Translations under genes and position numbers: made by a program | Shown: piece after piece, positions 8,002-27,237 of the stretch | Layout: each line of letters opens with the position of its first letter | Numbering within the stretch: position 1 is the stretch's first letter | Source: Desulfopila aestuarii DSM 18488 | Lineage (GTDB): Bacteria; Desulfobacterota; Desulfobulbia; Desulfobulbales; Desulfocapsaceae | NCBI GenBank assembly: GCA_945863875.1 | Contig: CAMBBS010000045.1 | Location: 1-33,825, forward strand | Length of the DNA stretch: 33,825 nt | Direction: 5' to 3' | The notes under the pieces: model-generated | Databases searched by the model: none | What the model was told of the DNA's origin: nothing | Seen by the model: only the letters and a program-made list of their open reading frames with translations

Positions 8002-8202
8002 GAAGTATTCCTCAACACCTGGGTAGATTATTGCTGATTGGAAGTTTGCCCTCACCAACACTCGGGAAGTACTTTTATTATGTTCGCGATGGAAAATTTT
8101 AATAAAATTTCCATGTAGCCCCCCCCCTCATATTGTCAAATGAGAAGCGTAATAGACTTTTTCACCGCCAGGCTGTCAAAAAACTAATGAAAAATTCACA
8201 AG

Positions 8203-11407: not shown

Positions 11408-11446
11408 AGACCACAATTAAACAAGTTAGCTCGGATTTCATCTGGG

Positions 11447-12222
11447 TTAAATATCGAACTTGATTCCTTGGGCTAAGGGGGAGGATCTTGCCGTAGTTGA
11501 TGGTGTTCGTTTGACGGCGCATATATGTTTTCCACGCATCGGTGCCGGATTCTCGACCGCCGCCGGTTTCTTTCTCGCCGCCAAAAGCCCCGCCGATCTC
11601 AGCGCCTGAAGTGCCGATGTTGACGTTGGCAAGACCGCAGTCAGATCCTACCGCCGATATGAAGAGTTCGGCTTCACAAATATTCTCTGTGAAAATGGCC
11701 GAGGAGAGGCCCTGGGCAACATCGTTATGCAGCAGAAGACCATTTTCGACCTCGCCGCTGTATTTGATCAGGTAGAGGATCGGGGCAAATGTCTCTTCCT
11801 GGACGATCTTGTAGCTGTTTTCCACTTCGGCTACAGCCGGGACCACATAGCAGTTCGACTCAAAACCTTCACCTTCCAGGACAGATCCTCCGTAAATAAC
11901 CTTGCCGCCTTCTTCTTGAACTTTTTTGAGTGCATTAAGGAAATCTTCGACCGCATCGCTGTCAATCAGAGGGCCGACGTGGTTGTTTTCATCGAGAGGG
12001 TTGCCAATCTTCAGGCCGGCATAGGCACTGACGATGGCCTCTTTGACATTGTCGTAGATCGATTCGTGGATAATCAATCGACGGGTCGAGGTGCAGCGTT
12101 GTCCAGCCGTGCCGACCGCTCCAAAGACGATGGCGGGCAGGGCCATTGTCAGGTCGGCATGAGGGGTGAGGATGATAGCGTTGTTGCCGCCCTGTTCAAG
12201 GATGGATTTGCCGAATCTCGGC
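11447..12222 (-). pseudogene. Aldehyde dehydrogenase (ALDH7-like), N-terminal half deleted, C-terminus frameshifted
   Basis: C-terminal half of an NAD-dependent aldehyde dehydrogenase resembling alpha-aminoadipic semialdehyde dehydrogenase (ALDH7/AMAD). Visible are [16 protein letters not shown], the catalytic-cysteine segment [44 protein letters not shown], and [18 protein letters not shown] followed by [16 protein letters not shown]. About 250 N-terminal residues, including the Rossmann fold, are missing: homology starts abruptly near 12222 at a LysR-like fragment of opposite polarity. At the other end a C5 run (near 11482) shifts the frame. With one C fewer the protein ends [10 protein letters not shown] at 11447, as the family should. 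Without that correction it runs on to 11289 through non-family sequence overlapping modA. It cannot be a working enzyme. Confidence 0.85.
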
Positions 12223-12480
12223 CAGTTGGAAAAGGAACTCGACAGACAGTTGTTTATCCGACATGCCAAAGGGGCCAGCCCAACGCAGGCAGGAAAAACT
12301 TTTTATCCTGCTGCGGTCAAAGTACTTAATGAAATAAACACAATGCAGGTATTGTTTCACAAGTGTCCTCCGCACGTGCCGTTGCGAATTGCTCTGATGC
12401 CTTTTTTGTCAGGGGAGCGGGTCGGCCTAATAATAAATGAACTGATAATCTCTCTGCCGGAGTTGGACTTAACCCAAGTT
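12214..12480 (+). pseudogene. LysR-type regulator fragment
   Basis: Plus-strand codons read [20 protein letters not shown] then [20 protein letters not shown] and PLRIALMPFLSGERVGLIIN, ending around SLPELDLTQV. This is the second half of a LysR-family HTH plus the start of the effector domain. The first HTH helix and start codon are missing at the left, where sequence passes directly into the aldehyde dehydrogenase remnant. Homology also stops near 12480, after which the frame reads unrelated residues to a stop. It is a fragment caught between two breakpoints. Confidence 0.8.
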
Positions 12481-12602: not shown

Positions 12603-13658
12603 TTATTTACCAAAACTGCAGACCGGATATTGACAATGTTTACAATTTCGACAAAGTCCACCGTGGCCAAGCTCGGCGATATCCCGGCGCTCAAGGGAAG
12701 CTCCGGTGAGGATCCGCGGAAGGACCAAGTCTAATACGGTGATTCTATGAAACATGCCGCAGGCCGGCAGTCCGACCACCGGCACCTGACCGATTCGACC
12801 GACGAGAAACATGGCACCCGGCAGAACAGCTGTGCCGTAGACGATGTTTTCCGCGCCGGCTTCTTTTATGCCTTGGCGGGTGACATCGTCCGGATCGACA
12901 GACATACCGCCCGAGGTGACGATCAACTCCGAGCCGGCTGCAAGGCACCGGTGAATCTCTTCGGCGATCCGCTGTGGATCGTCAGGGGCAAATCTTACAC
13001 TTTGCACTGTTGATCCGAGGCAGGCCAGTTTCTCCCGCAGAACCTGCTCGAACTTATCCTCGATCCGGCCGTAGTAGATCTCATTGCCGGTAATCACCAG
13101 ACCTGCCTGGACAGGGCGGAGCGGCAGCACCTGGATGATCGGTCTGTTCGTTTCGGCGATGGCCACCGCCTGTTCGACCACTCGCCGCCCGGCGACGAGG
13201 GGAATCAGTCTGGAGGCGGCAATCTGCTCCCCTTTTTTGACCGGGGTATTCGTCTGCAGGGTGGCGCACATCACCTCTCCGAGCATATTGAACTGCAGCA
13301 ATCCCTCCCTGTCGATTTTCAGCAGGCCGTCTGTTGCCGCACGGATGGAAACCTTGCCCTCAACTATTTCTTCCTGGTATTCTGTTCCGGAACCGGCGAG
13401 GGCCCTGGCCAGCAGCAGAGCCGCTTCATTCTCATGAATCTCGTTGTCGCTCAGCTGCAGGACATAAATATGTTCCTTGCCAAGGCGGAGGAGAAGGTCG
13501 ATATCTTCCTGCTGGATAACATGCCCCTTCCTGAACGCCCTCCCTTTAAAGGTATCTTTGACAATCTCGGTAATATCATGGGGGAGTACCATTCCCACTG
13601 CCTGTTCCACCGGAACGATGGTTTTCATTGATACGTTGTTCGCAGTCGTAATACCCAC
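12603..13658 (-). CDS. MoeA-like molybdopterin-binding protein with cysteine-rich tail
   Basis: 351 residues with a MoCF_biosynth (MoeA/MogA-type) domain, which binds molybdopterin during adenylylation or metal insertion. Key segments are AGLVITGNEIYYGRIEDKF in the middle and VTSGGMSVDPDDVT, the cofactor-binding loop. The N-terminus (VEQAVGMVLPHDITEI, then FKGRAFRKGHVI) is typical of the MoeA-like proteins beside aldehyde oxidoreductases. The C-terminus ends CRNCKHCQYPVC, giving CX2CX2CX4C spacing that could hold a metal or Fe-S cluster. GTG 13658 is preferred over ATG 13628 because AGAGAGG stands 8 bases upstream of the GTG and nothing similar precedes the ATG. It is the last gene of the long minus-strand operon, 37 bp after the phosphatase gene and next to the rearranged segment. 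Confidence 0.82.
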   Translation of the reverse strand: MGITTANNVSMKTIVPVEQAVGMVLPHDITEIVKDTFKGRAFRKGHVIQQEDIDLLLRLGKEHIYVLQLSDNEIHENEAALLLARALAGSGTEYQEEIVEGKVSIRAATDGLLKIDREGLLQFNMLGEVMCATLQTNTPVKKGEQIAASRLIPLVAGRRVVEQAVAIAETNRPIIQVLPLRPVQAGLVITGNEIYYGRIEDKFEQVLREKLACLGSTVQSVRFAPDDPQRIAEEIHRCLAAGSELIVTSGGMSVDPDDVTRQGIKEAGAENIVYGTAVLPGAMFLVGRIGQVPVVGLPACGMFHRITVLDLVLPRILTGASLERRDIAELGHGGLCRNCKHCQYPVCSFGK

Positions 13659-13695
13659 TTGTTATGCCTCTCTTGTAAGTATAACACTGATAATA

Positions 13696-14298
13696 TTACG
13701 TTATTTCATGAAGATTAACAGCTTCCACCTGCAAAACTTCAGAGTGGTAACTGAGGATATTGATCCCGCAATAATCCTGCGGAATCTCCAGCAACCGATG
13801 CAACGGCCTATGCTGGAGGCGCGACAGCAGCGCCCGGTTGACCCCGGCGTGTGCAACCACCAGCAGCGGCCCCATGAAAGTTTTCGCCAGGGAGATAAGC
13901 GCCGGGTAGCTGCGGACGGCAAGGTCGGCGAAACTCTCGCCATTCTCAGGCCGAAAAAATTCCATGTCCCGACCTCGCTGTTCGTACTCCCCGGGGAAAC
14001 GATGCCGCACCTCGTCGACAGTCAAACCCTCCCAGGCCCCGAGATTGATCTCCTTGAATGACTCGACCTGCCGTACAGCTGCAGACAAAATACCGCCAAC
14101 CAGAACCGCCGTTTGCATTGCCCGTTGCAGGGGCGAGGCAAAAATTCCGGTAAAGGGAATGTCCTGCAGCAGTTTGCGTAAGCCCAGGGACTGGCGGATA
14201 CCGTTGTCGTTTAACGGCGGGTCGGTCCAGCCGAGGAACGAGCGAGGCGCGTTGTGGTCAACTTCACCGTGGCGGATCAGATAAATTTTTGATTCCAT
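13696..14298 (-). CDS. Histidine phosphatase family protein
   Basis: 200 residues of the phosphoglycerate-mutase-like fold. The phosphohistidine motif is LIRHGEVDHN (residues 7-16), with an arginine in FASPLQRAMQTA (about 54-65), the catalytic acid in NLGAWEGLT, and the second histidine in VVAHAGVNR (about 147-155). It resembles CobC-like alpha-ribazole phosphatases, but no cobalamin gene is nearby. Its place, three bases after the MocA-like gene and before the MoeA-like gene, suggests a phospho-intermediate in cofactor maturation. That role is inferred from context. Confidence 0.8.
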   Translation of the reverse strand: MESKIYLIRHGEVDHNAPRSFLGWTDPPLNDNGIRQSLGLRKLLQDIPFTGIFASPLQRAMQTAVLVGGILSAAVRQVESFKEINLGAWEGLTVDEVRHRFPGEYEQRGRDMEFFRPENGESFADLAVRSYPALISLAKTFMGPLLVVAHAGVNRALLSRLQHRPLHRLLEIPQDYCGINILSYHSEVLQVEAVNLHEIT

Positions 14299-14301
14299 GG
14301 G

Positions 14302-15447
14302 TCATTCATCCAGGGTATGGGCAAGAATATCTTCGAGCCGTTGGCCGCTTTCCGTCTCGACGGCAGCAGCAAGGCGCCGCGCCAGTTCAAAGCGGCGGTT
14401 GATAGCCCGCACCACCTCCGGCCTATCGTGGTAGAGGTCGAGTTTTTCCTTAAAGCGTGCCGCCAAATCGACAATCCTACTGCCCCGTGCCAGTTTGTCG
14501 GCGAGATGCACCAGTTCTTTTTCGGTAATGGCCGTTCCAGGTTGCCAGGCCAGATCCCTGTGGGCGGCAACGATTTCCGCTGCCCGATCAAATCCGAGTT
14601 CACGCAGCCAGCGGCCGGCCTCCTGTTCGTGATTGGCATGTCCCTTGGCCATATCGTGCAGCCAGCCGCAAACCTGGCAAAGCTCGGGATCCAGCAGTCG
14701 TTTGGTGTTGTGCGAAATGGCTTGGCAGAGGGTTTTGGCAATGCTACCGACCAGCCGGCCGTGGGCCAGACCCTTTACCGGCATGGGGTGGAGCCGGAGG
14801 ATAATCGCTGCTTCCTCCGGAGTCGGATAATCCAGTCGGGCAGCACGTCTGAGTCCGGCGATGTATTCCTCCGGGGTATCCATATCAAAAAGGATATTAC
14901 CATCGGGCACCGGGACATCGATTATCAGTTCCGATTTTTTGTTTTCGAAGGTTTGCAGCAGGGAGCGCAGGCCGCCCTCGGGATGCTTTTTGTCGAGAAT
15001 TGCCGGAAGCAGGTCGCGGCCAATGAGTGGTGGGTGGCCCCGTCTCCCAGCAAAGGTCGGGTAAGTGATTGCCGCCGGTGTTGCCGAAAATGAACGGGCC
15101 AGCAGCCGAATCGTTCCGGGACGCACCAGAGGGATATCCACCGGCAAAAGGAAAAATCCGTCGCTTTCGTTCGCCAGGTGCCGCACGCCGGTCTTGATTG
15201 AGCTGTACATGCCGGCACCAAAATCGGGATTGTAGACCACTCGTGCACCTGCCCGTTCGGCAATGGCGCCGGTCTCTTCCCAGCGATGGCCGGTGACCAC
15301 CACCAACTCCTCAATGCCGCAGGTTTTGAAAAGGCTAATGCACAGGTCGAGGACAGTACCCGTTCCAAGAGGAATAGTCGCCTTCATTTTTCCCATGCGC
15401 GAAGAGAGTCCGGCCGCCAGGATGATCGCGCTCAGATGAGGTGCCAT
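14302..15447 (-). CDS. MocA/MobA-like nucleotidyltransferase fused to an HD domain (DVU_1551 type)
   Basis: 381 residues, two domains. Residues 1-200 form an NTP transferase: LSAIILAAGLSSRMGKMKAT holds the nucleotide-binding LSSRMG-K loop, and FFLLPVDIPLVRPG and TFAGRRGHPPLIGR match MocA-type molybdenum-cofactor cytidylyltransferases. Residues 215-381 form an HD hydrolase domain (HGRLVGSIAKTL, then CGWLHDMAKGHANHEQEAG). The same fusion occurs in the D. vulgaris DVU_1551 family as I recall it. MocA makes the cytosine dinucleotide form of the cofactor used by xanthine-oxidase-family enzymes such as Mop, so the nearby mop is the likely client. The HD domain could cleave a nucleotide or phosphate product. 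The start overlaps the xdhC stop by 16 bp. Confidence 0.85.
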   Translation of the reverse strand: MAPHLSAIILAAGLSSRMGKMKATIPLGTGTVLDLCISLFKTCGIEELVVVTGHRWEETGAIAERAGARVVYNPDFGAGMYSSIKTGVRHLANESDGFFLLPVDIPLVRPGTIRLLARSFSATPAAITYPTFAGRRGHPPLIGRDLLPAILDKKHPEGGLRSLLQTFENKKSELIIDVPVPDGNILFDMDTPEEYIAGLRRAARLDYPTPEEAAIILRLHPMPVKGLAHGRLVGSIAKTLCQAISHNTKRLLDPELCQVCGWLHDMAKGHANHEQEAGRWLRELGFDRAAEIVAAHRDLAWQPGTAITEKELVHLADKLARGSRIVDLAARFKEKLDLYHDRPEVVRAINRRFELARRLAAAVETESGQRLEDILAHTLDE

Positions 15448-16481
15448 GCCTTCCTGCCGGTTGCCCGCTGATAAATGAGTTCGCCGACAATACTTACCGC
15501 GATTTCTTCCGGGGTGTCTGCTTCGATAGCCATGCCGATCGGACAGTGAACCTGCTCAAATTGTGCCTCCTCGAAGCCCTTGTCCATCAGATGGGCATAG
15601 ATGGCGTTGCGCTTTTTGCGGCTGCCGATCATGCCGATATAGCCGGCCCTGGTGCGCAGGGCCTGATTGAGCACTTCCATGTCGTGCATATGTCCGCGGG
15701 TGACGATCACCAGATAGCTGTCCCCGTCCACATCATACCCTTTGAAGCAGTCGGTAAAAGAGGGGATCACCTTGATCTCATCCGCCAGGGGAAAGCGATC
15801 CCGGTTGGCGAACTCGATCCTATCGTCGATGACGATGACCCGGAAGCCGACCCGGGCCGCCGCTTCGGCAGTACAGGCGGCGACATGCCCGGCGCCAACG
15901 AGAAAGAGATTGCCGCCGACGGCGAAATAGGAGATCAGATATTCCCGGCCCATGTAATCAATAAGGGTGGCGGCCGAGGTGGAGGAACGGATCTGCCTGA
16001 CGGCGGCGAGCAAGCCATCCGACGCCTTTTCATGCAAGGTACGCCCCTGATGATCGATGACGAAGCGCCGGTTGTCGCTGTCGACGTCCAGCGAACTGAC
16101 CAGGGTAACCCTGCGTCCCGAAGTCATGGCCTCAAGCAGGGCACGGAAAACTTTTTTATTTTCCTCGTCGGCCGGAATAAATTCAAGAAACAGTTCCAGC
16201 TTGCCGCCGCAGATCATGTCGGTGACCGCAGCGTCGCTGTTGGAAAGATCAAAGACCCGGCGCAGGGAGTGGCCCTCGGAAAAGCAGTTTCGGGCTTCCT
16301 TCATGGCCTGGGCTTCGACCAGACCGCCGCCGATGGTTCCGGCGATACGACCGTCGCGATGAATGATCATTTTCGCACCGGCCAGGCGCGGGGTGGAACC
16401 CGACTGACTGGAGATGGTGACGAGGACGAGATCCTCTCCATCGCTTAAAAAGGAGCATAGTTGTTGTATAAGTTTTTTCAT
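15432..16481 (-). CDS. xdhC: XdhC/CoxI family molybdenum-enzyme maturation protein
   Basis: 349 residues. The N-terminal XdhC domain has LVTISSQSGSTPRLAGAKMI and GRIAGTIGGGLVEAQAMKEA (about 45-64). The C-terminal Rossmann domain has FLVGAGHVAACTAEAAARVG, then VTRGHMHDMEVLNQALR and GMIGSRKKRNAIY. XdhC proteins bind molybdenum cofactor, promote its sulfuration and insert it into xanthine-oxidase-family enzymes. The start overlaps the CoA-ligase stop by four bases (ATGA). With the MocA-like gene downstream and mop upstream in the same transcription unit, Mop is the obvious client. Confidence 0.9.
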   Translation of the reverse strand: MKKLIQQLCSFLSDGEDLVLVTISSQSGSTPRLAGAKMIIHRDGRIAGTIGGGLVEAQAMKEARNCFSEGHSLRRVFDLSNSDAAVTDMICGGKLELFLEFIPADEENKKVFRALLEAMTSGRRVTLVSSLDVDSDNRRFVIDHQGRTLHEKASDGLLAAVRQIRSSTSAATLIDYMGREYLISYFAVGGNLFLVGAGHVAACTAEAAARVGFRVIVIDDRIEFANRDRFPLADEIKVIPSFTDCFKGYDVDGDSYLVIVTRGHMHDMEVLNQALRTRAGYIGMIGSRKKRNAIYAHLMDKGFEEAQFEQVHCPIGMAIEADTPEEIAVSIVGELIYQRATGRKAWHLI

Positions 16482-17788
16482 GTTCTGATTTCCTGTCGCT
16501 TGATTTCGAGAATACGTTTACCTGGATGAATTGTCGGTGTTGGATCGATGGTGAGGACCAGCTCCAGTTTGAGTTTCGCCAGCAGCGTCGCCATCCTTTG
16601 TGAAACCTGACGAAGCAGGACATCCTCGTCGCCTGGAATGGCGACAAGGCGGAGGTGAAGTTTTTCGTGTCCCCTTTTCGCAGTCAGGACCGCCCGAAAA
16701 TCGAGCAGGCCGGGCAGCGGAAAAAGAAGTTCGTCCAAAGTCTGCAGGGCGAGCTGTTGGCCATTGCCAAGGGTGTGGACCTGGCCAATCCGGCCAAAGA
16801 CCCGGTCAAGCCGACGAATATGGCTGCCGCAGGGGCAGGGATCGGGCAACAACCGGCCACGATCACCGGTACGATAGCGGATAAGCGGCATGCCGGTACG
16901 GGTGATGGTGGTAACGACGATTTCTCCCCACTGACCAATGGCGAGAGGATTGGTGGTTTTTGGATCGATGATTTCAAACAAGAGGTCTGCCTCCCGCACA
17001 TGCAGCCCACAATGGGCGCCGCAGTCGACCCCGCCACCGAGACCTGTTTCCACCGTGCCGTAATGGCTGAAGACCTCACAGGTCAGCAGCTCGGCCAGAT
17101 GGCTGCCGAGACTCTCTGGGATGTAATCCGAACAGAGCAGTACTGAGCGAATGTGACCGAGCTGGAGTTTCAGGCTTGCCGCAATCCGAGCAATGGCCAG
17201 AAGCTGGACCGGAAAACCGACCAGCACGTCGGGCTGCAGTTTATGCAAGGTGCGCGCGGCCAGAGTGGGATCGTTAACCAGACCGAGGATGGCAGCTGAC
17301 ACCTTCATCCGTTGCAGAGCCTGGGCCAGCATATGGCCAGTGGAATCGGGGGTGGCGCCCGGCAGCAGAATCGCTACCGTCTGTCCGGGGTCGACCAGGG
17401 ACAGCATGCCATGGTGGAAAAAATCCAGGGTCCGTTGCAGATCCGCATCGGTAAAATGGAGCCTTTTCGGATGACCGGTGGTCCCGGAGCTCTGTAAGGT
17501 GATGATCCGGGCCACCGCATCCTGGCTGACACAAACCATCTGTGATCCGTGCGAGCGCAGGTCGTCTTCGCCGGTCAGAGGCAGCTCTGTCAGGTTTTCC
17601 ATTCCTTTGATCGTGGTGACTCCGGCATCGGTAAAAGTACGTCGATAAAAAACGGACCGCTCCCGACAGAAATCAACAAGGCTGCACAACCGTTCGGCCT
17701 GGTAGCTTTCGATCTCGGAACGTGACAGGGGTGAGGAGGACCGGCCGATACTTTTGCTGATCATCGCTTCCAGGGAGGTGATATTCAT
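16478..17788 (-). CDS. AMP-dependent (PaaK-like) CoA ligase of the DVU_1553 type
   Basis: 436 residues from ATG 17788, an adenylate-forming enzyme. The phosphate-binding loop is LQSSGTTGHPKR. HYGTVETGLGG is the A5-type motif, IRYRTGDRGRL the hinge aspartate and arginine motif, and PGKRILEIKRQEIRT carries the C-terminal lysine. The family activates a carboxylate as acyl-AMP and then as a thioester; the closest shape is phenylacetate-CoA ligase. The longer frame upstream to 18067 is shadow sequence of the radical SAM gene. AGGTGGGACAACA supplies the ribosome-binding site, and ATGA couples it to that gene. The acid substrate is unknown. Confidence 0.85.
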   Translation of the reverse strand: MNITSLEAMISKSIGRSSSPLSRSEIESYQAERLCSLVDFCRERSVFYRRTFTDAGVTTIKGMENLTELPLTGEDDLRSHGSQMVCVSQDAVARIITLQSSGTTGHPKRLHFTDADLQRTLDFFHHGMLSLVDPGQTVAILLPGATPDSTGHMLAQALQRMKVSAAILGLVNDPTLAARTLHKLQPDVLVGFPVQLLAIARIAASLKLQLGHIRSVLLCSDYIPESLGSHLAELLTCEVFSHYGTVETGLGGGVDCGAHCGLHVREADLLFEIIDPKTTNPLAIGQWGEIVVTTITRTGMPLIRYRTGDRGRLLPDPCPCGSHIRRLDRVFGRIGQVHTLGNGQQLALQTLDELLFPLPGLLDFRAVLTAKRGHEKLHLRLVAIPGDEDVLLRQVSQRMATLLAKLKLELVLTIDPTPTIHPGKRILEIKRQEIRT

Positions 17789-19197
17789 TGTTGTCCCACC
17801 TGGCGATAGAGAGTTTTGCCCAGCGTGGAGCTCAGGTTGTAGGCGCAAAACGGGATAATGTCGCCCTCCGGGGAAACCACATGAATACAACAGCCCCGCA
17901 ACCGTTCCAGGTCCAGGGTCCACACATCCTGAAAAGCCATGGCCGAGATCGACAAGGTGTGGGTTCGTGCTCGGGCCAGAAAACGATCGAGATCGTCGTC
18001 TACCTTGGCTTGTTTCCCCGCCCGGCTTGATGTTTCGGCTGCAATGGCCATAACAGGAAGCGACCACTGCCTAGCGGTGAAGGCCACACTCTTTTCCCTG
18101 CCTTCCAGCGCTGAGGGAATCACCGTCTGGGGCTCACCGCCCGAACAGCAGGCGGTCTTGGCATGGCCAAGGGGAAGAAGACTATTGTTTTCCTGGATGA
18201 GAAAATTGCCATGGAACGAACAAAGGGCGTGTTCGCAGGCCGGGGGGGAAAAGTTTTCGGCGGTGAGAGTGCCTTCGCTCTGTTCTTCAAGTAACTGCAG
18301 GACTTCGGGCAAGGTCAGCCGGTCCTCGTCGGCCGGGTCTTTTTGCATACGGCCAAAATAGCTGACCGGCTGAAAATGGACGCCGCGCACCGTGGGGGCA
18401 AAGCGGATGGCATAGTCGATGATTGCCCCGACCTCATGGGTGTTGACACCGGGGACCAGGGTCGGAACCAGGACCACGGCCAGTCCGGCGGCTTGACAGT
18501 GCAGCAAGGCCTGTTCTTTTATTGCGGTCAGGTCGCGTCCCCGCAGGGTTGTATGGGTGGCGCCGCAGAGGCCGTCGAATTGGAGAAAGACCGAGCTCAA
18601 ACCGGCTTTTTTAAGGGATATTGCATAGTTCGGATCTTCGGCCAGGCACAGGCCGTTGGTATTCAGCTGGAGAAAGGGAAAGCCCTTGTCCCGGCCCAAG
18701 GCAATGATCGCGGGCAGATCGGTCCGCATCGTCGGTTCGCCGCCGGACAGTTGAATATTACAGGGACCGGAGGCGGCCATGATCCGGTCATAGAGAAAAC
18801 CGATCCTGGTCAGCGAGGGCTCGTCCATTTTATTTTCCGTGCTGCCGGCATCGGCAAAGCAGACCGGACAGTGCAGATTGCAGCGGCTGGTGATTTCAAT
18901 GAGAGCGGTGCAGGTATGCTGGCCGTGCTCCGGACAGAGACCGCAGTCAAAGGGGCAGCCTTTATCAACCGCAGTGAAACTGAGCTGTGGGGTGGAGGGT
19001 TTTTTCGGTCGCAGCCAGGTAGAAAACTCCACCGGCCCCCGCCAGATCACCGTACGAAAGTTGCCGTGTTCCGGGCAGTGTTTGACCAGATAGACCGTAT
19101 CACCCTGTTGTTCGCGAACGGCGGGAATTCGTCGGAGACACACCGGGCAGAGACTTGCGGTCGATGACAGCTGTTTTATCTGCTGATCAGTATGCAC
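17785..19197 (-). CDS. Radical SAM protein (TrsS-like; related to the MJ0619/Tes group)
   Basis: 470 residues from GTG 19197. The radical SAM cluster motif is CNLHCPVC (residues 106-113, CX3CX2C). It is preceded by CPFDCGLCPEHGQHTC (81-96), an arrangement also seen in archaeal MJ0619 and tetraether lipid synthases. A zinc-like CPVC sits at 17-20. LSGGEPTMR is the SAM-binding GGE motif. C-terminal cysteines (CEHALCSFHG, ACCSGG, GCCIHVV, FCAYNL) could carry more clusters. Some relatives are named (seleno)protein TrsS; here these positions are plain Cys and the frame has no internal UGA. The start is uncertain: a TTG at 19242 gives a longer frame, but GTG 19197 follows GAGAAGAAG. No reaction is established. 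Confidence 0.8.
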   Translation of the reverse strand: MHTDQQIKQLSSTASLCPVCLRRIPAVREQQGDTVYLVKHCPEHGNFRTVIWRGPVEFSTWLRPKKPSTPQLSFTAVDKGCPFDCGLCPEHGQHTCTALIEITSRCNLHCPVCFADAGSTENKMDEPSLTRIGFLYDRIMAASGPCNIQLSGGEPTMRTDLPAIIALGRDKGFPFLQLNTNGLCLAEDPNYAISLKKAGLSSVFLQFDGLCGATHTTLRGRDLTAIKEQALLHCQAAGLAVVLVPTLVPGVNTHEVGAIIDYAIRFAPTVRGVHFQPVSYFGRMQKDPADEDRLTLPEVLQLLEEQSEGTLTAENFSPPACEHALCSFHGNFLIQENNSLLPLGHAKTACCSGGEPQTVIPSALEGREKSVAFTARQWSLPVMAIAAETSSRAGKQAKVDDDLDRFLARARTHTLSISAMAFQDVWTLDLERLRGCCIHVVSPEGDIIPFCAYNLSSTLGKTLYRQVGQQ

Positions 19198-19642
19198 CGG
19201 CTTCTTCTCGTGGCAGGCTGGGGTCGATGTTACTTTCGGCAAGCAGCTGGAGGATCATCTCCCGGGCGCGGACCATCATGTCGCCGCAGACTTCGGGCTT
19301 TCTGCCGCCATGAAAAGCGATGATATCGTCGCAGCGGATACCGCCCCAGGTATCGGCGTTGTCCTTGTACCAGTCCATAAACCTGGACAGCAGCAGGGGA
19401 TAGCAGTCCAGAACCGTTTCTTCAGCACTGCCTTTAGCGGTGTACAGGGCGATGATGCAGGCGCCGCCGGCTGCGACCCCGCAAAGCTCGCCAATGGCCA
19501 TTCCTTCGCAGAGTCCGGCCATGGCCCGCACCAGGGCAACGTTTTCCACACCCATATCGGCAAGGGTCAGCTGCATCATTATCTGGCTGCAGCAGAAACC
19601 CTGACCATTCAGCTGCATGACACGCAAAGAAGTATCATCCAT
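19187..19642 (-). CDS. C-GCAxxG-C-C family protein (DVU_1555 type)
   Basis: 151 residues from ATG 19642. Members share spaced cysteines around a C-GCAxxG-like core. Here these are GFCCSQ (about 16-21), GLCEGMAIGELCGVAAGGAC (about 55-74), a DCYPLLL cysteine and GIRCDDI plus EVCGDM. Such proteins are thought to bind a metal cluster and often sit beside redox or radical SAM genes; no activity is established. GGAGCC provides the ribosome-binding site. The start overlaps the methyltransferase stop by 8 bp and its end overlaps the radical SAM start by 11 bp. The upstream in-frame codons to 19681 belong to the methyltransferase gene. Confidence 0.82.
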   Translation of the reverse strand: MDDTSLRVMQLNGQGFCCSQIMMQLTLADMGVENVALVRAMAGLCEGMAIGELCGVAAGGACIIALYTAKGSAEETVLDCYPLLLSRFMDWYKDNADTWGGIRCDDIIAFHGGRKPEVCGDMMVRAREMILQLLAESNIDPSLPREEAGAY

Positions 19643-20366
19643 AATAGGCTCCTTTTTCGGCAATGATTGCATAGTAACCAAGGGGAGCGGCGGCCAGGGT
19701 GCAGCAGGTTTGCCGTGCGGCCTCCGTGCCCATGAACAGCTGCCAGAATTTTTCCAGGCTGCCGTAGCTGAAGATGATCTGTCCGGCTAGCTGCTTCAGC
19801 AGCTCGCTGCGGTCCTGGAGCAGGGAGAGGGTGAAACCGGCCGTAGACAACCCTTTTTCTATTGTGGTCAGGGGCCGGGCATGGGTGATGCAGCTCTTCA
19901 GATCGGACAGCTCCGGCTTGGGACCTGCCGGTTTGCGATAGATATCGCTGAGGAAGAGCACTCCGCCCGGCTTGAGAACGCGATACATCTCCCGCAGGCT
20001 CTGTTCAATATCTCCGGTCAGGGAAAGGACACATTCGGCAATGACCGTCTCAAAGCTCTGCGATCGACAGGGAATCGCCGCGGCCACTCCTTGAATAAAA
20101 GTTGCGGCCGGTGCCTGGTGGACCGCTTGGGCCAGGAGAATCGCCGATGGATCAAGACCGGTTGGCCGCAGGCCGAAGTCGGTGACCAGCAGGGCTGCGG
20201 TATGACCGGCGCCGCAACCCACATCGAGGATGGTGGAGTCGGAACTTGGCCTGCGGCGGGCAAGCAGTTCGCTGGTCAGTGCAAGACCGCCGGGACGCAG
20301 GGTGCCGCCGGTAACCTGAGAGAATTCCTCCTGTTCGTAGAGCGTAATTGTGGTCTTACTTGTCAT
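19635..20366 (-). CDS. Class I SAM-dependent methyltransferase (DVU_1556 type)
   Basis: 243 residues. SAM-binding motif I is ILDVGCGAGHTAALL (about 46-60) and the motif II acidic residue is in PTGLDPSAILLAQ. YRVLKPGGVLFLSDIYR is the typical later motif of small-molecule methyltransferases. The N-terminus EEFSQVTGGTLRPGGLALT is shared with UbiE-like and arsenite-methyltransferase-like members. It starts one base after the stop of the small CxxC gene. Its methyl acceptor is unknown; its place between the small CxxC gene and the C-GCAxxG gene implies a product-tailoring step in the cluster's pathway. Confidence 0.85.
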   Translation of the reverse strand: MTSKTTITLYEQEEFSQVTGGTLRPGGLALTSELLARRRPSSDSTILDVGCGAGHTAALLVTDFGLRPTGLDPSAILLAQAVHQAPAATFIQGVAAAIPCRSQSFETVIAECVLSLTGDIEQSLREMYRVLKPGGVLFLSDIYRKPAGPKPELSDLKSCITHARPLTTIEKGLSTAGFTLSLLQDRSELLKQLAGQIIFSYGSLEKFWQLFMGTEAARQTCCTLAAAPLGYYAIIAEKGAYYG

Positions 20367-20367
20367 C

Positions 20368-20577
20368 TTACTTATCTTCCAGGAGCTGTTCCACTTCCAG
20401 CATCTTGCCCATGGCCAGAGTTTCCGGAACCAGGACCATGCCGCACTGCGGGCAGGTCATGAGTTCGACATTGAATACCGAGTTCAGATAACTGACATTG
20501 ACCTTGGTCGGCTGCAGGGGCTGCCTGCAGCCGGCGCACTGCCAGGAAGTATCTTCGATAAAGGAAAAATTGCTCAT
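20368..20577 (-). CDS. Small two-CxxC protein (DVU_1557-type redox or zinc-ribbon protein)
   Basis: 69 residues with CAGC (about 14-17) and CPQC (about 42-45), each on a hairpin-like turn, as in rubredoxin or zinc ribbons. The middle (KVNVSYLNSVFNVELMT) is beta-rich. A C-terminal acidic helix (ETLAMGKMLEVEQLLEDK) follows. Whether it carries iron and transfers electrons or binds zinc structurally cannot be told from sequence. The ATG overlaps the stop of the large oxidoreductase gene by four bases. Confidence 0.8.
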   Translation of the reverse strand: MSNFSFIEDTSWQCAGCRQPLQPTKVNVSYLNSVFNVELMTCPQCGMVLVPETLAMGKMLEVEQLLEDK

Positions 20578-22892
20578 GAAAGTTCCTCCGGCAGCTGCAT
20601 GCGATGGCTGTAGGCATTGTGAATCACATTGCCCTGGGCTGCAGGTTCATATTCCACCCAATAGGTTACCCGTACCGGTTTGTAACTCGCCAGGTGATGA
20701 TTGTTGTGCGGATTAATCAAGTGCTTGCCGGTTTGTTTCGCATGAAAAATGACCTTGCGGATGTCATCGTCGAGGATATGGCGGCTGTCCAGTAATTCAG
20801 CCACCTCCCGGCTGATGATGAGCTGGATCCTTGCATGATCGGGACCGGGACCGGCGGCCTCCCCCCAGAGCTCAGCCAGCATTTCTTCTTTCAGGCGGGC
20901 CCGGTTTTCATGACGCCCGGAAAAGCCGGGATTGTTTCGCAGCAGAGGATCGCCGTCTTTTTGTCCGGGGAAAATATAGTCAAGCAAATGGGCAACCGGT
21001 GAGCCGGATGCGGCGAGGTTGTCGCGGCACATGGCGCAGTAGGCAAGACCGGCATGTTCGCTGCGTTCCGCCTTAACCCGGGCTGCCTTTTTGCCGAGGG
21101 GCGGATTGGCGACCTGCATCAAACCGCCGTAGCCGCAGCAGTCGGTCAATTCGCCGTTATAGTCGTGCTCGACAATATCCAGTCCGAGTCTGGTGCAGAT
21201 ATTACGGACACAGCTGCGCATGACCTGCTGGTGCCGGGCCGTGCAGGGATCGTGGATGGTCAGCGGTTGTTCCGGCTTGCGGGCAGCGGCTCTGTCTGTC
21301 GGCAGCTGCAGGCCGTCCAGCACCTCCCAAAGGGAAATCGTTTCTATCTCGCCGGCAAATTCCTTGAATAGAGCCAGACAACTCGAACAGGCGGTGATCA
21401 CCGTTGGTTTGCCCAGCTTTTCATGCTCTATCTTGAAATTTGCCATAGTCTTGGCAAACAGTCCATCCTGTCCGGCCCAGTGGGCGGGAATACCGCAGCA
21501 GCTGAGCAGCAGGCCAACCCCGTCCGGAAGCTGCTGGCGGAGAAAAGCGTAAGTGTTTTTCACCGTCTCCGGCGCCGATCCGGCCAACTGACAACCGGGA
21601 TAGAAGAGATAGCGGCTGGTCGAGCTACCCGGCTGATGGCGGCTGAGAGTACAGAAATCGCTGAGACTGAACTGCATATCCTCCAAGGCAAATTCATGGG
21701 CCGAGGGCGGCATGTGCTTATCCCGCACCATCTCCTGTCGACTGGTGCGACAGATATCAGCCACCGGAAAGTCATGGGGGCAGATCATCGTGCACTGGGT
21801 ACAGAGGCTGCAGGAATTGATCATTTTGTTGGCCGACCTGGTACCCTGGACGATGGCTTGATTATTATAGATCTTACGCAGCAGTGTTTTCGGATATTCC
21901 TTGAATTCACGGAGATAAACGCACTGCTTGACACATTCCAGACACTCGCAATGGATGCAGCGCCCAGCCTCCCGGCGGGCTTCATCATCGGAATAGCCGG
22001 CGTCCGGATCGGCTGGAACAATCTCGGCGACAGGGGCAATACCGGAGGTTACGGTGTGCATCCGGGTAGTCCGAACTCCTTCCATCTCCCGCTGGGCGGT
22101 AAGCGAGACCTTGTCCAGATAACGCTCAATGGAAAGAGCGGCTCGACGGCCGTCTTCCACTTGCTTTATTACCGAAAAAGCAGCAGTGTCGGGGAAAGCT
22201 CCGCCGCCGGCAAAGCAGCCTTCGGGGCCAAGGGCCAGGGTGTGCGGGTCGGGGCGTCCGGCAGCGGTGGGTAATCGGCCCGGTTCGATTTCGTCCAGAT
22301 CGACGTAGACGGCGTCATAGTCCGATGCCAGGGAAACAATAAATTGTGTGGGCAGCGCTGTAGCGGTTTGCAAAATGACACCGTAGTCCGCAAGGATGGT
22401 CTCCGCCTGGAGCAGGGCCTTTTTCGGCAGAAGTTTTTCATCAAAATCAAGCAGGGTTCCGCCGATGCATGCTTTTCCGGTCATGAGTGTGGTATTGCGC
22501 CCCTTACGGGCGAGATCAAGAGCCGCGGTCATGCCGGAAAGACCACCGCCGACGATCACGACCCGGCCTTTTTTAGCCGGGAATCTTGGCAGTTTAAGCA
22601 CCGTCTGGCTATTGACGACACAATAACGCTCAAGTCTGCCGGTACTGAGCGGGTCACCGATTTCCCCTCGTTTGCAGAAGGAGTAACAGGGCTGGTCGCA
22701 CACCCGTCCGACAATGTCCGGAAAAGGCATGGCCCGGTCCAGAAGCCGTCGGGCTCCGCGTATATCCCCTTTGGCAAGGGCCGCCATAAAGGCCCGGACA
22801 TCGACATGAATGGGACAGGCAGCCGTGCAGAAAGGTTGCTCTTCCTGGATACAGCGGGCCTCGATTTCTTTCAGTTGCGATTGATCCATCAT
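20574..22892 (-). CDS. Pyridine nucleotide-disulfide oxidoreductase / dicluster-binding protein with CCG domains
   Basis: 772 residues from ATG 22892 (GGA five bases upstream; a second ATG follows at once). Domain order: an N-terminal GltD-like Fe-S region (C-IQEEQPFCTAACPIHV, then CDQPCYSFCKRG); an FAD/NAD fold with VVIVGGGLSGMTAALDLA; two [4Fe-4S] sites (CIHCECLECVKQC and CSLCTQCTMICPHDFP); two HdrD/GlpC-type CCG domains (FYPGCQLAG with SCCGIPAHW, then DCCGYGGL with YCAMCRDNL); and a tail of about 120 residues. This is a flavin-to-heterodisulfide-type electron relay. It may connect NAD(P)H to the cluster's redox chemistry or to Mop. It follows mop after a 147-bp gap that holds a strong hairpin. 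Confidence 0.85.
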   Translation of the reverse strand: MMDQSQLKEIEARCIQEEQPFCTAACPIHVDVRAFMAALAKGDIRGARRLLDRAMPFPDIVGRVCDQPCYSFCKRGEIGDPLSTGRLERYCVVNSQTVLKLPRFPAKKGRVVIVGGGLSGMTAALDLARKGRNTTLMTGKACIGGTLLDFDEKLLPKKALLQAETILADYGVILQTATALPTQFIVSLASDYDAVYVDLDEIEPGRLPTAAGRPDPHTLALGPEGCFAGGGAFPDTAAFSVIKQVEDGRRAALSIERYLDKVSLTAQREMEGVRTTRMHTVTSGIAPVAEIVPADPDAGYSDDEARREAGRCIHCECLECVKQCVYLREFKEYPKTLLRKIYNNQAIVQGTRSANKMINSCSLCTQCTMICPHDFPVADICRTSRQEMVRDKHMPPSAHEFALEDMQFSLSDFCTLSRHQPGSSTSRYLFYPGCQLAGSAPETVKNTYAFLRQQLPDGVGLLLSCCGIPAHWAGQDGLFAKTMANFKIEHEKLGKPTVITACSSCLALFKEFAGEIETISLWEVLDGLQLPTDRAAARKPEQPLTIHDPCTARHQQVMRSCVRNICTRLGLDIVEHDYNGELTDCCGYGGLMQVANPPLGKKAARVKAERSEHAGLAYCAMCRDNLAASGSPVAHLLDYIFPGQKDGDPLLRNNPGFSGRHENRARLKEEMLAELWGEAAGPGPDHARIQLIISREVAELLDSRHILDDDIRKVIFHAKQTGKHLINPHNNHHLASYKPVRVTYWVEYEPAAQGNVIHNAYSHRMQLPEELS

Positions 22893-22972
22893 TACAATCC
22901 GGTTGAAGGGCAAAAGAGCATTCTCGGACAGGCTCCTGGGAGCCACAGCGATAAAAGGTTAAAGGGAGCTAA

Positions 22973-23009
22973 CACCACAGGGACGATACGGCGCATCGTC
23001 CCTGTGGTG
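22973..23009. terminator. Strong hairpin between mop and the dicluster gene
   Basis: CACCACAGGGACGAT (22973-22987) pairs perfectly with ATCGTCCCTGTGGTG (22995-23009), a 15-bp stem with a 7-base loop. No T-run follows on the minus strand. It may block 3' exonucleases and set a higher mRNA level for mop than for the genes after it, rather than end transcription fully. Confidence 0.6.
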
Positions 23010-23038
23010 GTCAGAAGGAGACCTGCATAAAGCCGATC

Positions 23039-25756
23039 TTATTTCGGCATGGCGGCCAGCACCTTCTCCGGCAGAGCCGGGAGATTTCGCACCCGCGCTC
23101 CGCAGGCGTTGTAGATGCCGTTGATGACCGCTGCGTGCGGACAGGTCAGCGGCAACTCCCCGACTCCGGATGCACCGAAGGGGCCGTCGGGACGCGGGCT
23201 TTCCACATAGATAAGCTCCATATCGTCGGGGATCTGTTTGATATACGGGAAACCGGCTCCGGCGAGGGTCGAATGTTTTTTAATATCCTCGAAATCCTCG
23301 GTGAGCGCCAGGCCGATCGCCTGGGCGATTCCGCCATACAGCTGACCGTCGACCACCAGTTTATTGACGATCTTGCCGACATCGGCGATGCAGGTGATCT
23401 TCTCCACGGTAGTCTTGCCGGTGGCCGTTTCAACCGCCACTTCGGCCATAAACAGCCCGTACATATAGTTGCAGAAGGGGTTCCCCTGGCCGTTGTCATC
23501 GCAGGCATTGGCAGGAGCGCTCCATTTGCCGTTTACCTTGGTGGGTATTTTCGCCTCCAGCATCTCGGCATGGGTGCGGAAGGTGCCGTCATCCTTTTTC
23601 ATGGCCTTGAGAAGCTCATCGCAGGCAACCCGTATAGACTGACCGACCACGACCTGGCTGCGGCTGCCGCCGGCGGGACCGGAGTTAGGACATTTGCCGG
23701 TGTCGTTCATCACCAGCTTGATCCGGTCGGTGGTGAGACCCAAGGGGCGCAGGGCCTCATGGGCAGTGGCCATCGTCCCCATATCCGCTCCCTGACCATG
23801 GTCCTCCCAGGTGTTGAAGACGGTAACGGTACCATCAACGTTCAACTCGACGTCGGTTTCAGCGGTATCCGGACCATCAAGTCCGCAGCCATAGACGCCA
23901 AGGGAAATGCCGACCCCCCGTTTGACCGCATCGGTGGAATTGGCAGCAACTCGTTTTTTGGCCTCTTCGTATTTCGGGCGGAGCTTGTCAAGCATTTCCG
24001 GCAGGGAGTATACCTCCGGATCCTGACCTGTTGGTGTGGTCGATCCTTGACGGTAACAGTTCTTGTAGCGCAATTCAAGCGGATCCATGCCCAGTTTTTC
24101 GGCCAGTTCGTCCATCAGCACTTCGGAGGCGAATTCGGACTGGGGCGAACCGTAGCCGCGGAAGGCGGATCCCCAGGCATGGTTGGTGCACACGGTGCGG
24201 CCTTCTCCACGGATGTTTTTGATATCGTATCCGGCACCGATAAACTGTGCGCCGCGCAGGGTCAACAGGTCGCCAAATTCGGAATAGGGACCGTGATCAA
24301 CTGACCAGTCGGTCTCCATGCCCTGAAGCATGCCTTTTTTGTCGGCGGCGAACTTGACATTCATGAAGAAAGGCGACCGTTTCCCCGTGTAGGTTTGCTG
24401 CTGGAAGTAGTCATAGCAGAGAAAGACCGGGCGTCCGGTGGCGATGGCTGCTGCGCCGACCAAGGCCTCCATGGTCGGGCTGAATTTATAGCCGAAGGTC
24501 CCGCCGGTGTTATTCTGGACGAGAACCAGGTTTTCCGGCTCCACGCCCAGGCCGGGCGCGATCATATAAAGATGGAGATGGACACCGATGGATTTGGAGT
24601 GGATAACCAGTTTGCCGGCATCGTCATGATAGGCATAGCCGACATCGGGCTCGATGGGCATATGCGGCTGACGACCGACATAATAATCGCCTTCAATGAC
24701 CACCTCGGCCTGGTTGAAAATAGGCTGGGTTTCTCCACCCTTGGCAATCTTCTGAATATAATAGACATTGGGTGTCCCTGGATGGATCTCGAGGGCGTCG
24801 GGTTCCATGGCTGCCGGTGCGCTCATGTAGGCAGGCAGTTCTTCAAGCTCGACCTTGACTTTTTTTGCCGCGGCCTTGGCATTTTTTTCGGTATCGGCAC
24901 AGACGATGGCCAAGGCATCGCCAAACTGGAAGACCTTGGTGTCACAGAGGATTGGACGATCCCAGCCATCACCCTTATTTGACGGGAAGGTAATAAGGCC
25001 GGTAATTCGGTTTTTCCCTTTGATGTCCTTGGCTGTCACCACCTTAACCACTCCGGGCATCTTTTCGGCTTCACTGGTATCTATGGACAGAATATTCGCA
25101 TGGGACACTTCGGCCTGTACCAGCGCCATCTGCAGGGTGTTTTCCGGCAGGCTCAGCCCGCTGTCCGCACCGAAATCCCAAGTGCCGGTTACCTTGGCCG
25201 CGGCACTTGGCCGCGGCATGCTGGTGCCAAAGACCTTGCCGTCTGCAGGAAGTTTGAAAGCCAGGTCTTTCAGGGTCAACTCTCCTTTCAGAACTCTCGC
25301 TGCATCCTGGACTGAATCGACCAGTTGTTTGTAGCCGGTGCAGCGGCAGGCATTGCGGTATTTCTGAAACCAGTCGCGGATGGCTTCACGGGATGGATCA
25401 GGGGTGGTGTCGAGCAGGGCCTTGGCGGAAACAATGAAACCGGGAGTGCAGAACCCGCATTGGGCTCCGCCGTGGACCATCCAGGCCATTTGCAGGGCAT
25501 GGAGATCATCCGGGGTTCCGATACCTTCGATTGTGGTGATAGCCGAACCATCCTCTACCCTGTCCATTTTGGTGATGCAGGAACGGAGCAGTTTGCCGTT
25601 GACAATGACGTTACAGGCGCCGCATTGTCCCTGACCGCAACCGACTTTGGTCCCGGTGAGACGGAGGGTTTTCCGGATTACGTCGGACAGCAGCTCGGAC
25701 GATTCCGTGACCACCGTCCGGGCAATACCATTGACGTACAGTTTTTTTCTCTGCAT
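23039..25756 (-). CDS. mop: Aldehyde oxidoreductase (Mop type, xanthine oxidase family)
   Basis: 905 residues from ATG 25756, with GGGAG seven bases upstream; D. gigas Mop has 907. It oxidises aldehydes to carboxylic acids with a Mo-pterin cytosine dinucleotide cofactor. [2Fe-2S] cysteines fall at 40, 45, 48, 60 and at 100, 103, 137, 139, identical to D. gigas numbering. Later blocks include KNRITGLITFPSNKGDGWDR, RQPHMPIEPDVGYAYHDDAG, GTFGYKFSPTMEAL, WGSAFRGYGSPQ and, near the C-terminus, FGASGVGELPLT with the catalytic glutamate. All domains are fused and no flavin domain is present, as in D. gigas. It lies between an alcohol dehydrogenase gene and the maturation cluster, and presumably removes the aldehyde formed by the former. 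Confidence 0.95.
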   Translation of the reverse strand: MQRKKLYVNGIARTVVTESSELLSDVIRKTLRLTGTKVGCGQGQCGACNVIVNGKLLRSCITKMDRVEDGSAITTIEGIGTPDDLHALQMAWMVHGGAQCGFCTPGFIVSAKALLDTTPDPSREAIRDWFQKYRNACRCTGYKQLVDSVQDAARVLKGELTLKDLAFKLPADGKVFGTSMPRPSAAAKVTGTWDFGADSGLSLPENTLQMALVQAEVSHANILSIDTSEAEKMPGVVKVVTAKDIKGKNRITGLITFPSNKGDGWDRPILCDTKVFQFGDALAIVCADTEKNAKAAAKKVKVELEELPAYMSAPAAMEPDALEIHPGTPNVYYIQKIAKGGETQPIFNQAEVVIEGDYYVGRQPHMPIEPDVGYAYHDDAGKLVIHSKSIGVHLHLYMIAPGLGVEPENLVLVQNNTGGTFGYKFSPTMEALVGAAAIATGRPVFLCYDYFQQQTYTGKRSPFFMNVKFAADKKGMLQGMETDWSVDHGPYSEFGDLLTLRGAQFIGAGYDIKNIRGEGRTVCTNHAWGSAFRGYGSPQSEFASEVLMDELAEKLGMDPLELRYKNCYRQGSTTPTGQDPEVYSLPEMLDKLRPKYEEAKKRVAANSTDAVKRGVGISLGVYGCGLDGPDTAETDVELNVDGTVTVFNTWEDHGQGADMGTMATAHEALRPLGLTTDRIKLVMNDTGKCPNSGPAGGSRSQVVVGQSIRVACDELLKAMKKDDGTFRTHAEMLEAKIPTKVNGKWSAPANACDDNGQGNPFCNYMYGLFMAEVAVETATGKTTVEKITCIADVGKIVNKLVVDGQLYGGIAQAIGLALTEDFEDIKKHSTLAGAGFPYIKQIPDDMELIYVESPRPDGPFGASGVGELPLTCPHAAVINGIYNACGARVRNLPALPEKVLAAMPK

Positions 25757-25818
25757 TTTTTTTCTCCCAAATAGATATTGATAGTGCATCCGGACTATCG
25801 TCTTTCTTAAAACAACGA

Positions 25819-25843
25819 CAGGACGCGAAAGATTCGCGTCCTG
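25819..25843 (-). terminator. Hairpin between the alcohol dehydrogenase gene and mop
   Basis: CAGGACGCGAA and TTCGCGTCCTG form an 11-bp stem with a 3-base loop. On the minus strand it is followed by TCGTTGTTTT, a moderate T-rich tail. It could end or attenuate transcription from the sigma-54 promoter before mop, which starts 63 bp further on. Confidence 0.6.
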
Positions 25844-25957
25844 AAAAGTCGACCATAGCCGAATGTCTGGACAAGTACATCATGCAACAGCTGGTTCAAC
25901 CTCGCCCCGGATAATCAAAAGGTCTGGGGCCTGGCTGAACCGGAATTCTTTTTGACT

Positions 25958-27139: not shown

Positions 27140-27221
27140 AATGTCACCTTCCTTTCCTTGAGTTTTAGTTTCTGTAATCGTTTTTTCCGGGTTTTGGATT
27201 AAACGAACTGCACTCAATTTC

Positions 27222-27237
27222 AGCAAGTACTATGCCA
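27222..27237 (-). promoter_or_regulatory. Sigma-54 promoter upstream of the alcohol dehydrogenase gene
   Basis: On the minus strand TGGCATAGTACTTGCT matches the RpoN consensus TGGCAC-N5-TTGCW, with GG and GC 12 bases apart as required for -24/-12. The expected start is near 27211, giving a leader of about 70 bases. A sigma-54 promoter implies control by an enhancer-binding activator, with room for its sites in the long upstream spacer. Confidence 0.75.

Follow-up and report, generated by a model that had tools for sequence, protein, structure and literature searches.

A conserved TrsS gene module beside the aldehyde oxidoreductase Mop of Desulfopila aestuarii and its possible trans-acting product

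The stretch of DNA analysed here (the window, 33,825 nucleotides of contig CAMBBS010000045.1 from Desulfopila aestuarii DSM 18488) contains a minus-strand locus that begins with the gene for the aldehyde oxidoreductase Mop at 23039-25789 and continues through ten further genes down to 12603. Among these are a module encoding TrsS, which is a radical S-adenosylmethionine (SAM) protein, a PaaK-like coenzyme A (CoA) ligase and a methyltransferase, and the gene for a dicluster oxidoreductase that we call dicl. We tentatively propose, at well under even confidence, that this operon has two layers and that the module makes a small product which acts in trans and is used together with dicl. The proposal is drawn from the asymmetry between Mop and TrsS across genomes, the grouping of the Mop-associated sequences in the TrsS tree, the ordinary cofactor of the Desulfovibrio gigas Mop, genomes with several Mops, and the constancy of dicl and its CCG motifs, and also from a dihydrolipoyl dehydrogenase at one TrsS locus (L124) and a MtaA-like protein beside archaeal TrsS.

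In the first layer, which is partly established, Mop would oxidise an aldehyde, its molybdopterin cytosine dinucleotide being supplied by XdhC, a MocA-like nucleoside triphosphate (NTP) transferase and a MoeA-like protein. Its electrons would pass to dicl and a small DUF7479 protein, with the N-terminal flavin adenine dinucleotide (FAD) half of dicl replacing the FAD domain that is absent from Mop. In the second layer, TrsS, the ligase and, in bacteria, the methyltransferase would make a small diffusible redox coenzyme, perhaps a thiol, to be reduced or used at the HdrB/D-type double CCG site of dicl or, elsewhere, by another disulfide/thiol enzyme, with Mop as the electron donor. The module would predate its link with Mop and have other partners where Mop is absent. 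The genes of the locus are as follows.

23039-25789, minus strand: Mop, a molybdopterin-dependent aldehyde oxidoreductase of the xanthine oxidase family without FAD domain (NF045668, 1700.2 bits, cut-off 1100)
20574-22946, minus strand: dicl, with a GltD-like FAD/NAD(P) N-terminal half, a 4Fe-4S dicluster and two HdrB/D-type CCG motifs (NF045663, 1005.7 bits, cut-off 530)
20368-20577, minus strand: small cysteine-rich redox protein of the DVU_1557 type (red57; NF045645, 105.7 bits, cut-off 60; DUF7479 in Pfam)
19635-20366, minus strand: SAM-dependent methyltransferase of the DVU_1556 family (mt; NF045667, 216.2 bits, cut-off 155)
19187-19681, minus strand: C-GCAxxG-C-C protein of the DVU_1555 family (cga; NF045669, 143.4 bits, cut-off 103)
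17785-19242, minus strand: TrsS, a radical SAM protein related to the tetraether lipid synthase Tes (NF045646, 672.6 bits, cut-off 490)
16478-17788, minus strand: PaaK-like adenylate-forming (CoA) ligase of the DVU_1553 family (lig; NF045666, 438.3 bits, cut-off 300)
15432-16481, minus strand: XdhC-type molybdenum cofactor maturation factor (NF045664, 422.9 bits, cut-off 350)
14302-15447, minus strand: fusion of a MocA-like NTP transferase with an HD domain, DVU_1551 family (ntpHD; NF045665, 417.6 bits, cut-off 315; NTP_transf_3 and HD in Pfam)
13696-14298, minus strand: CobC-like histidine phosphatase (phos; His_Phos_1, 173.7 bits; best NCBIfam model TIGR03162, 146.9 bits with 162.9 required)
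12603-13658, minus strand: MoeA-like molybdopterin-binding protein (MoCF_biosynth, 84.2 bits; TIGR00177, 59.2 bits with 85.35 required)

Curated NCBIfam cut-offs are passed by nine of these eleven proteins and by neither the phosphatase nor the MoeA-like protein. The original prediction had described ten minus-strand genes with overlaps or short gaps beside mop, and all are present, as open reading frames (ORFs) within 12603-22946 that overlap or are separated by at most a few dozen bases. The dicl ORF opens at 22946, and the start named in that prediction, 22892, is an internal methionine and the likely start. The raw ligase ORF reaches 18067 and overlaps TrsS; since the family match begins only at residue 97, and since the TrsS stop codon shares an ATGA with an ATG at 17788, the gene very probably starts at this ATG. 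The closest solved structure to the ligase is the phenylacetate-CoA ligase 4r1l (2.1e-28), and its score against the phenylacetate-CoA ligase PaaK model TIGR02155 is 113.4 bits, below the 646.3 required. The MocA-like-HD protein probably transfers a cytidylyl group to molybdopterin, and the XdhC, MocA-like and MoeA-like proteins fit the supply of the Mop cofactor that had been predicted for them.

The block mop-dicl-red57-mt-cga-trsS-lig is repeated in the same order in Thermodesulfobacteriota and Bacillota, so that the arrangement is not due to chance. The Desulfobulbus-type loci L002-L006 have the full order mop-dicl-DUF7479-mt-cga-trsS-lig-xdhC-ntpHD found in the window; downstream of lig, xdhC-ntpHD-phos is widely kept, and moeA is often located 5' of mop, a moeA-like gene lying upstream of mop in many relatives. 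The NCBIfam names confirm the resemblance to DVU_1551-1557 that the original prediction had noted: judged by these names, the DVU_1551-1559 locus of Desulfovibrio has the same families (NF045645, NF045646 and NF045663-NF045669) and shows no essential difference from the window, which adds, like its Desulfobulbus relatives, an iron-dependent alcohol dehydrogenase beside mop. The window locus thus belongs to a type that is already catalogued and does not stand out within it, its families having been named by NCBI. The alcohol dehydrogenase gene (25958-27226, minus strand) adjoins mop and is kept in L002-L006 and L022 with 83-88% identity, which fits a route from alcohol through aldehyde to acid. 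Our literature searches found no published role for the partner genes of Mop and, for DVU1553 to DVU1558, met only DVU1558; TrsS is named as the radical SAM protein in a review table. Haft and Tolstoy 2025 (mSystems 10:e0141724), which that review cites as its source, may already describe parts of the neighbourhood.

A scan of the species-genome collection for TrsS gave 79 loci (64 bacterial and 15 archaeal), loci at contig ends being counted. Mop stands beside TrsS in 47 of the 64 bacterial loci and in none of the 15 archaeal ones, and the methyltransferase in 55 and none, respectively; the ligase is found in 61/64 bacterial and 14/15 archaeal loci and the C-terminal domain of dicl in 51/64 and 13/15. 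The steadiest companion of TrsS besides the ligase is the HdrB/D-like dicl or its C-terminal domain. As loci found through TrsS cannot show how often Mop goes without it, we used genome panels for that question: 297 genomes of the phylum of the window (Desulfobacterota, a name taken from its named relatives) and 265 genomes of the class of Geosporobacter (which we take to be Clostridia), the seed genome of the latter, G021, having been chosen because it has both TrsS and Mop. In the phylum, TrsS is over its cut-off in 33 genomes, Mop in 26 and both in 25 (Fisher p = 2.3e-28, kinship ignored), and all ten families with Mop also carry TrsS. The TrsS genomes of the phylum have the methyltransferase over its cut-off in 29 of 33 cases and the ligase in 31, the other two reaching 288.6 and 275.1 of the 300 bits required. 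In the class, the same 10 genomes have Mop and TrsS (9/9 without the seed). Mop without TrsS is thus seen in 1/26 genomes of the phylum and 0/10 of the class, by contrast with TrsS without Mop, which is seen in 8/33, 0/10 and, among the archaea tested, 7/7. Nine genomes of the phylum have as their best protein a distant Mop-like one (740-832 bits, below the cut-off) and none of the nine carries TrsS, which ties TrsS to this Mop family and not to molybdenum hydroxylases generally.

The eight TrsS genomes of the phylum without Mop over the cut-off are G096, G125, G129, G146, G152, G173, G233 and G274. A fragment of Mop (890 bits, positions 1-453) is found in G125, and the TrsS of G274 is on a 4.9-kb contig. 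A search for MoCoBD_1, by which the family as a whole binds molybdenum, gave no match in G096, G129, G152, G233 or G060 (the TrsS match of G060 is cut); G146, G173 and G274 have the domain, G125 lying outside that search. Neither Mop nor MoCoBD_1 was found in the seven archaeal TrsS carriers tested, mostly Methanomassiliicoccales and of unstated genome completeness. The pattern that would separate these families from molybdenum hydroxylases is therefore seen in all seven archaea and in four of the 33 carriers of the phylum, and does not hold for most bacterial carriers, which have Mop.

A TrsS/Tes tree was made by a quick method, with support from the Shimodaira-Hasegawa-like approximate likelihood ratio test (SH-aLRT) only and with long branches; near copies had been removed, which left 115 of 129 rows. 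One branch of 83 rows (SH-aLRT 100) takes in every one of the 64 Mop-labelled rows, and the 19 other rows of this branch include loci cut by contig ends and loci without an adjacent Mop, such as L043 of Sporomusa. Outside it are Tes (9 rows), archaeal TrsS (13 rows) and Mop-free bacterial TrsS (10 rows), the order among these outer lines being weakly supported (83-87). On the simplest reading, Mop would have joined an older module once.

Among 86 Mop loci longer than 7 kb (some of which repeat others), 83 have the body of dicl and 76 have TrsS; the dicl body is missing from L112, L130 and L138, the first and last of which lie on either side of a single Mop. Of the 42 among them that were not found through TrsS, 39 have dicl and 32 TrsS. 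Mop is thus accompanied more closely by dicl than by TrsS. The window protein matches Fer4_20, Fer4_17 and CCG in Pfam and ends in a domain of about 100 residues that contains a YSHRM motif in the alignment of this domain; the model of the domain is good (predicted local distance difference test, pLDDT, 89.8) and a search of the PDB gave no match to its fold at E <= 0.001. Two copies of CX27-45CCX28-45CXXC, which we take to be the CCG motif of the HdrB/D type, are found in 92 of 101 dicl proteins, including that of the window; of the remaining nine, seven come from ORFs that are short or truncated, and those of L010 and L011 show one copy. The motif pair is shared with heterodisulfide reductases of the HdrB and HdrD types and with TfrB (the TfrB model gives 45.7 bits, far below its cut-off), from which dicl differs by its own N-terminal FAD half and its C-terminal domain; by this likeness, dicl may reduce a disulfide. 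In the Mop-free loci of the phylum, L085-L091, the GltD-like half occurs in 0/7, the C-terminal domain in 7/7 and the CCG body, by score, in 5/7, which suggests that the FAD half belongs to the electron route of Mop and the remainder to the TrsS side.

The main idea of the original prediction was that TrsS, the ligase and the methyltransferase mature the Mop cofactor by adding a special ligand or modifying the pterin. The link that it saw between these genes and Mop is very strong in bacteria, and the near-perfect dependence of Mop on TrsS in both panels, the shared operon and the matching copy numbers of Mop and TrsS in G648 and G626 speak for it; the maturation role itself we nevertheless consider very unlikely. 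The closest solved structures to the window Mop are 1dgj and 1sij, matched over the full length at 1488.6 and 1434 bits, respectively; 1sij is the Mop of D. gigas and 1dgj presumably that of D. desulfuricans. The D. gigas genome, recognised by a 100% match to 1sij over 309 residues, has the module at L101 (moeA-mop-dicl-DUF7479-mt-cga-trsS-lig-xdhC, the fetched stretch ending at xdhC), and in the family of this organism, where Mop loci were read from 20 of 60 matching genomes, TrsS lies beside Mop in 18 of the 20, the exceptions being L115, which stops at a contig edge, and L112, without TrsS nearby. According to passages of a review (PMC10223205), the D. gigas Mop was the first member of the xanthine oxidase family with a solved crystal structure. 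The structure, determined at 1.28 A, shows the pterin rings very clearly; the cofactor is a cytosine dinucleotide, and the enzyme does not need a sulfido ligand. These passages propose flavodoxin as its electron acceptor and do not mention the neighbouring module. Had TrsS altered the pterin or added an extra ligand in a stable way, this should be visible at such a resolution; a labile or regulatory change of Mop is possible. Since TrsS also lives without Mop, and in genomes where no molybdenum hydroxylase was found, since the Mop rows form an inner clade and since the D. gigas cofactor is ordinary, the module is probably not a maturase of this cofactor; the absence of TrsS from all the genomes with distant Mop-like proteins also counts against such a role.

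Genomes with several Mops lead from here to the trans-acting product that we favour. G559, on one contig, has three Mops over the cut-off and one TrsS; its extra Mops (L134 and L135) keep dicl and DUF7479, and mt, trsS and lig are absent from the 19-kb stretches read. G109 and G316 have two Mops over the cut-off and one TrsS each. In Sporomusa, the Mop locus L156 is without trsS, mt and lig and the genome has TrsS elsewhere (L043, L140), and the Mop locus L157 continues on the same contig into the ligase and TrsS of L140. As one TrsS accompanies two or three Mops in some genomes, its product probably acts in trans.

As to what TrsS does, it carries both CPFDCGLCPEH and CNLHCPVC, and its best sequence match among solved structures is Tes (structures 7tol and 7tom; 9.7e-94 with 7tol); its predicted model (pLDDT 89.2) has a template modelling (TM) score of 0.79 to 7tol by query length, the next ones listed reaching at most 0.44. 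Twelve cysteines (C32, C35, C56, C96, C100, C103, C121, C125, C128, C341, C451 and C466) are kept in 98-100% of 119 TrsS rows and in 90-100% of 10 Tes rows, and would presumably bind the radical SAM cluster and further metal sites. Because TrsS keeps the fold and the cysteines of Tes, its chemistry is probably a difficult C-C or C-H step. It could accordingly be imagined to join or alter alkyl chains as Tes does, giving an unusual membrane lipid or a lipophilic electron carrier, a reading that takes support from this close relationship, from the genes for GGGP synthase (PcrB) and UbiA near archaeal TrsS and from the roles in lipids proposed for bacterial Tes homologs by Zeng et al. (PMC8941075), and that we find unlikely. 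With 356.1 bits, TrsS remains below the 450 required by the Tes model NF045702; phmmer aligns both ends of the two proteins and leaves the middle unaligned; Tes rows are grouped by one branch (SH-aLRT 99); and H289 is found in 98% of TrsS rows and 0% of Tes rows, C111 in 99% and 30%, and C249 in 85% and 20%. In an archaeal panel of the Methanomassiliicoccales-type order (61 genomes), Tes is over its cut-off in 61/61 and TrsS in 36/61, so that TrsS is an addition to Tes and not the Tes of its host. PcrB and UbiA adjoin RadA and CCA-transferase genes and were set aside as evidence for lipids, this being probably ordinary archaeal synteny.

Selenium was also considered, and rejected, as the key to TrsS. 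The window ORF has no in-frame TGA, its terminal TGA being the one that overlaps the ligase start, and the best aligned TrsS stretches of the 79 loci have none except at two N-terminal positions of L008. At the trsS end of L121 (G626, contig C203), TGA codons lie just past the last aligned residues and one lies inside the profile match, as a stop codon or selenocysteine. Two loci outside the Mop clade, L124 (6876-9471) and L128 (2646-5238), have tandem trsS pairs with a slight overlap, possibly encoding a heterodimer.

The neighbours of TrsS where Mop is absent bear on a further explanation, a pathway branch in which the module would produce or consume an acyl-CoA. Mop would oxidise an aldehyde to the acid, the ligase would convert this acid to its CoA thioester (or, alternatively, activate the substrate of TrsS), further changes would be made by TrsS and the methyltransferase and, without Mop, double-cubane HGD-D and BadF reductases would act on the thioester. 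The ligase is indeed the closest companion of TrsS; HGD-D proteins occur in L085, L090 and L128 by Pfam and in L067 and L124 by BLAST only (Pfam gives nothing for L124); a BadF activase is found by Pfam in L085 and by BLAST in L090 and L067; and transporters, of the NMT1-type ABC kind (binding proteins in L067 and L044) or TRAP, are present at some Mop-free loci. Against this, BadF relatives are also present at the Mop locus L020, several Mops are served by one TrsS in G559, G109 and G316, dicl is more constant than Mop, and to spend two SAM in a catabolic route would, from general knowledge, be unusual; we regard such a branch as rather unlikely. RACo and the TRAP transporter were rejected as partners in L087 and L089, where they lie on the opposite strand and are confined to one family.

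In L124, a dihydrolipoyl dehydrogenase (475.6 bits, cut-off 408.8, with its CX4C) lies between mt and the two tandem trsS. Beside archaeal TrsS there is a MtaA-like protein of the URO-D family (55.6 of 244 bits with PRK06252, under the MtaA cut-offs); at least 7 of the 8 such proteins that were aligned retain H-x-C and a later C, which we take to be the MtaA zinc motif. Archaeal loci also have the C-terminal domain of dicl fused to DUF7479, by score in L067, L152, L153 and L154 and by eye only in L080 and L062. L086 encodes DsrM- and DsrK-like proteins below their cut-offs, a BioB-like radical SAM protein occurs in L043 and, by BLAST, in L067, and DUF5714 is present in L043, to which BLAST adds L067, L128 and the Mop loci L095 and L096. 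A single loose motif scan for a lipoyl carrier protein near TrsS gave no candidate. The recurrence of disulfide/thiol enzymes near the module makes us lean to a thiol-type coenzyme, with relatives of acyl-CoA reductases recurring too. Extended to its widest and most speculative form, which we think quite unlikely as a whole, the idea is that one thiol or dithiol coenzyme, as yet undescribed, is common to sulfate reducers, acetogens and some methanogens. It would be built by TrsS and the ligase, tailored by the methyltransferase in bacteria, reduced by disulfide enzymes of unrelated folds (dicl and dihydrolipoyl dehydrogenase) with electrons supplied by Mop, and alkylated in archaea by the MtaA-like zinc enzyme.

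Several observations weigh against a trans-acting coenzyme used with dicl. CCG motifs occur in electron-transfer proteins too, and the DsrK, TmcB and LdhH models also match dicl, the FAD half of which is not strictly bound to Mop, as it is present at L011, L043 and L070 without an adjacent Mop (the genome of L043 has Mop elsewhere). Neither the dicl body nor a methyltransferase of the DVU_1556 type was seen in the 15 archaeal TrsS loci. The dihydrolipoyl dehydrogenase of L124 and a lipoate-protein ligase in L043 are known from one locus each, with a 27% relative of the former in L048, and the HGD-D proteins of several Mop-free loci are also compatible with acyl-CoA chemistry. Mop and TrsS are equal in number, two and two, in G648 and G626, and G580 has more TrsS than Mop, so action in trans is not forced in these three genomes. 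Finally, G262, the sole Mop genome of the phylum without TrsS, keeps dicl, DUF7479, the methyltransferase and the ligase. Its locus L092 holds dicl, DUF7479, mt, cga, lig and a Mop fragment and no trsS. In this metagenome-assembled genome, two Mop contigs (C118 and C121) have identical coordinates, so that an assembly error is possible.

Elsewhere in the window, guanine plus cytosine content is 0.53-0.59 in the run of genes that moeA and the alcohol dehydrogenase gene delimit (12603-27226) and 0.44-0.49 in five ORFs at 601-8061, so that a gain by transfer, or two regions with a different history, is possible. An ABC transporter (permease, ATPase and binding protein) is encoded at 601-3312 (minus strand) and the molybdate-binding ModA at 10589-11407 (plus strand). 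An aldehyde dehydrogenase ORF at 11289-12269 (minus strand) covers no more than the C-terminal half of the profile for L-piperidine-6-carboxylate dehydrogenase (positions 222-469 of 475); upstream of it, one frame shows stops and no N-terminal half, and it is perhaps a gene remnant. At 30248-33316 (minus strand), an in-frame TGA (32729-32731) splits the gene for the alpha subunit of formate dehydrogenase-N; on the profile it falls between positions 194 and 212, which we take to be the expected selenocysteine site.

Taken together, the link to Mop seen in the original prediction is right for bacteria and its maturation idea unlikely. The best-supported account, held with modest confidence, is that of a product which acts in trans and is used together with dicl. 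The module genes almost always accompany Mop and yet also occur in its absence, methanogenic archaea included, a pattern suggesting that they make a small molecule used by anaerobes. The asymmetry between Mop and TrsS, with genomes that have three Mops and one TrsS, makes this annotation puzzle open to a clean deletion experiment. If the module makes a coenzyme, flavodoxin as the proposed acceptor of Mop would have to be reconsidered, and the genes that sulfate reducers, acetogens and methanogens have in common would gain a testable function.

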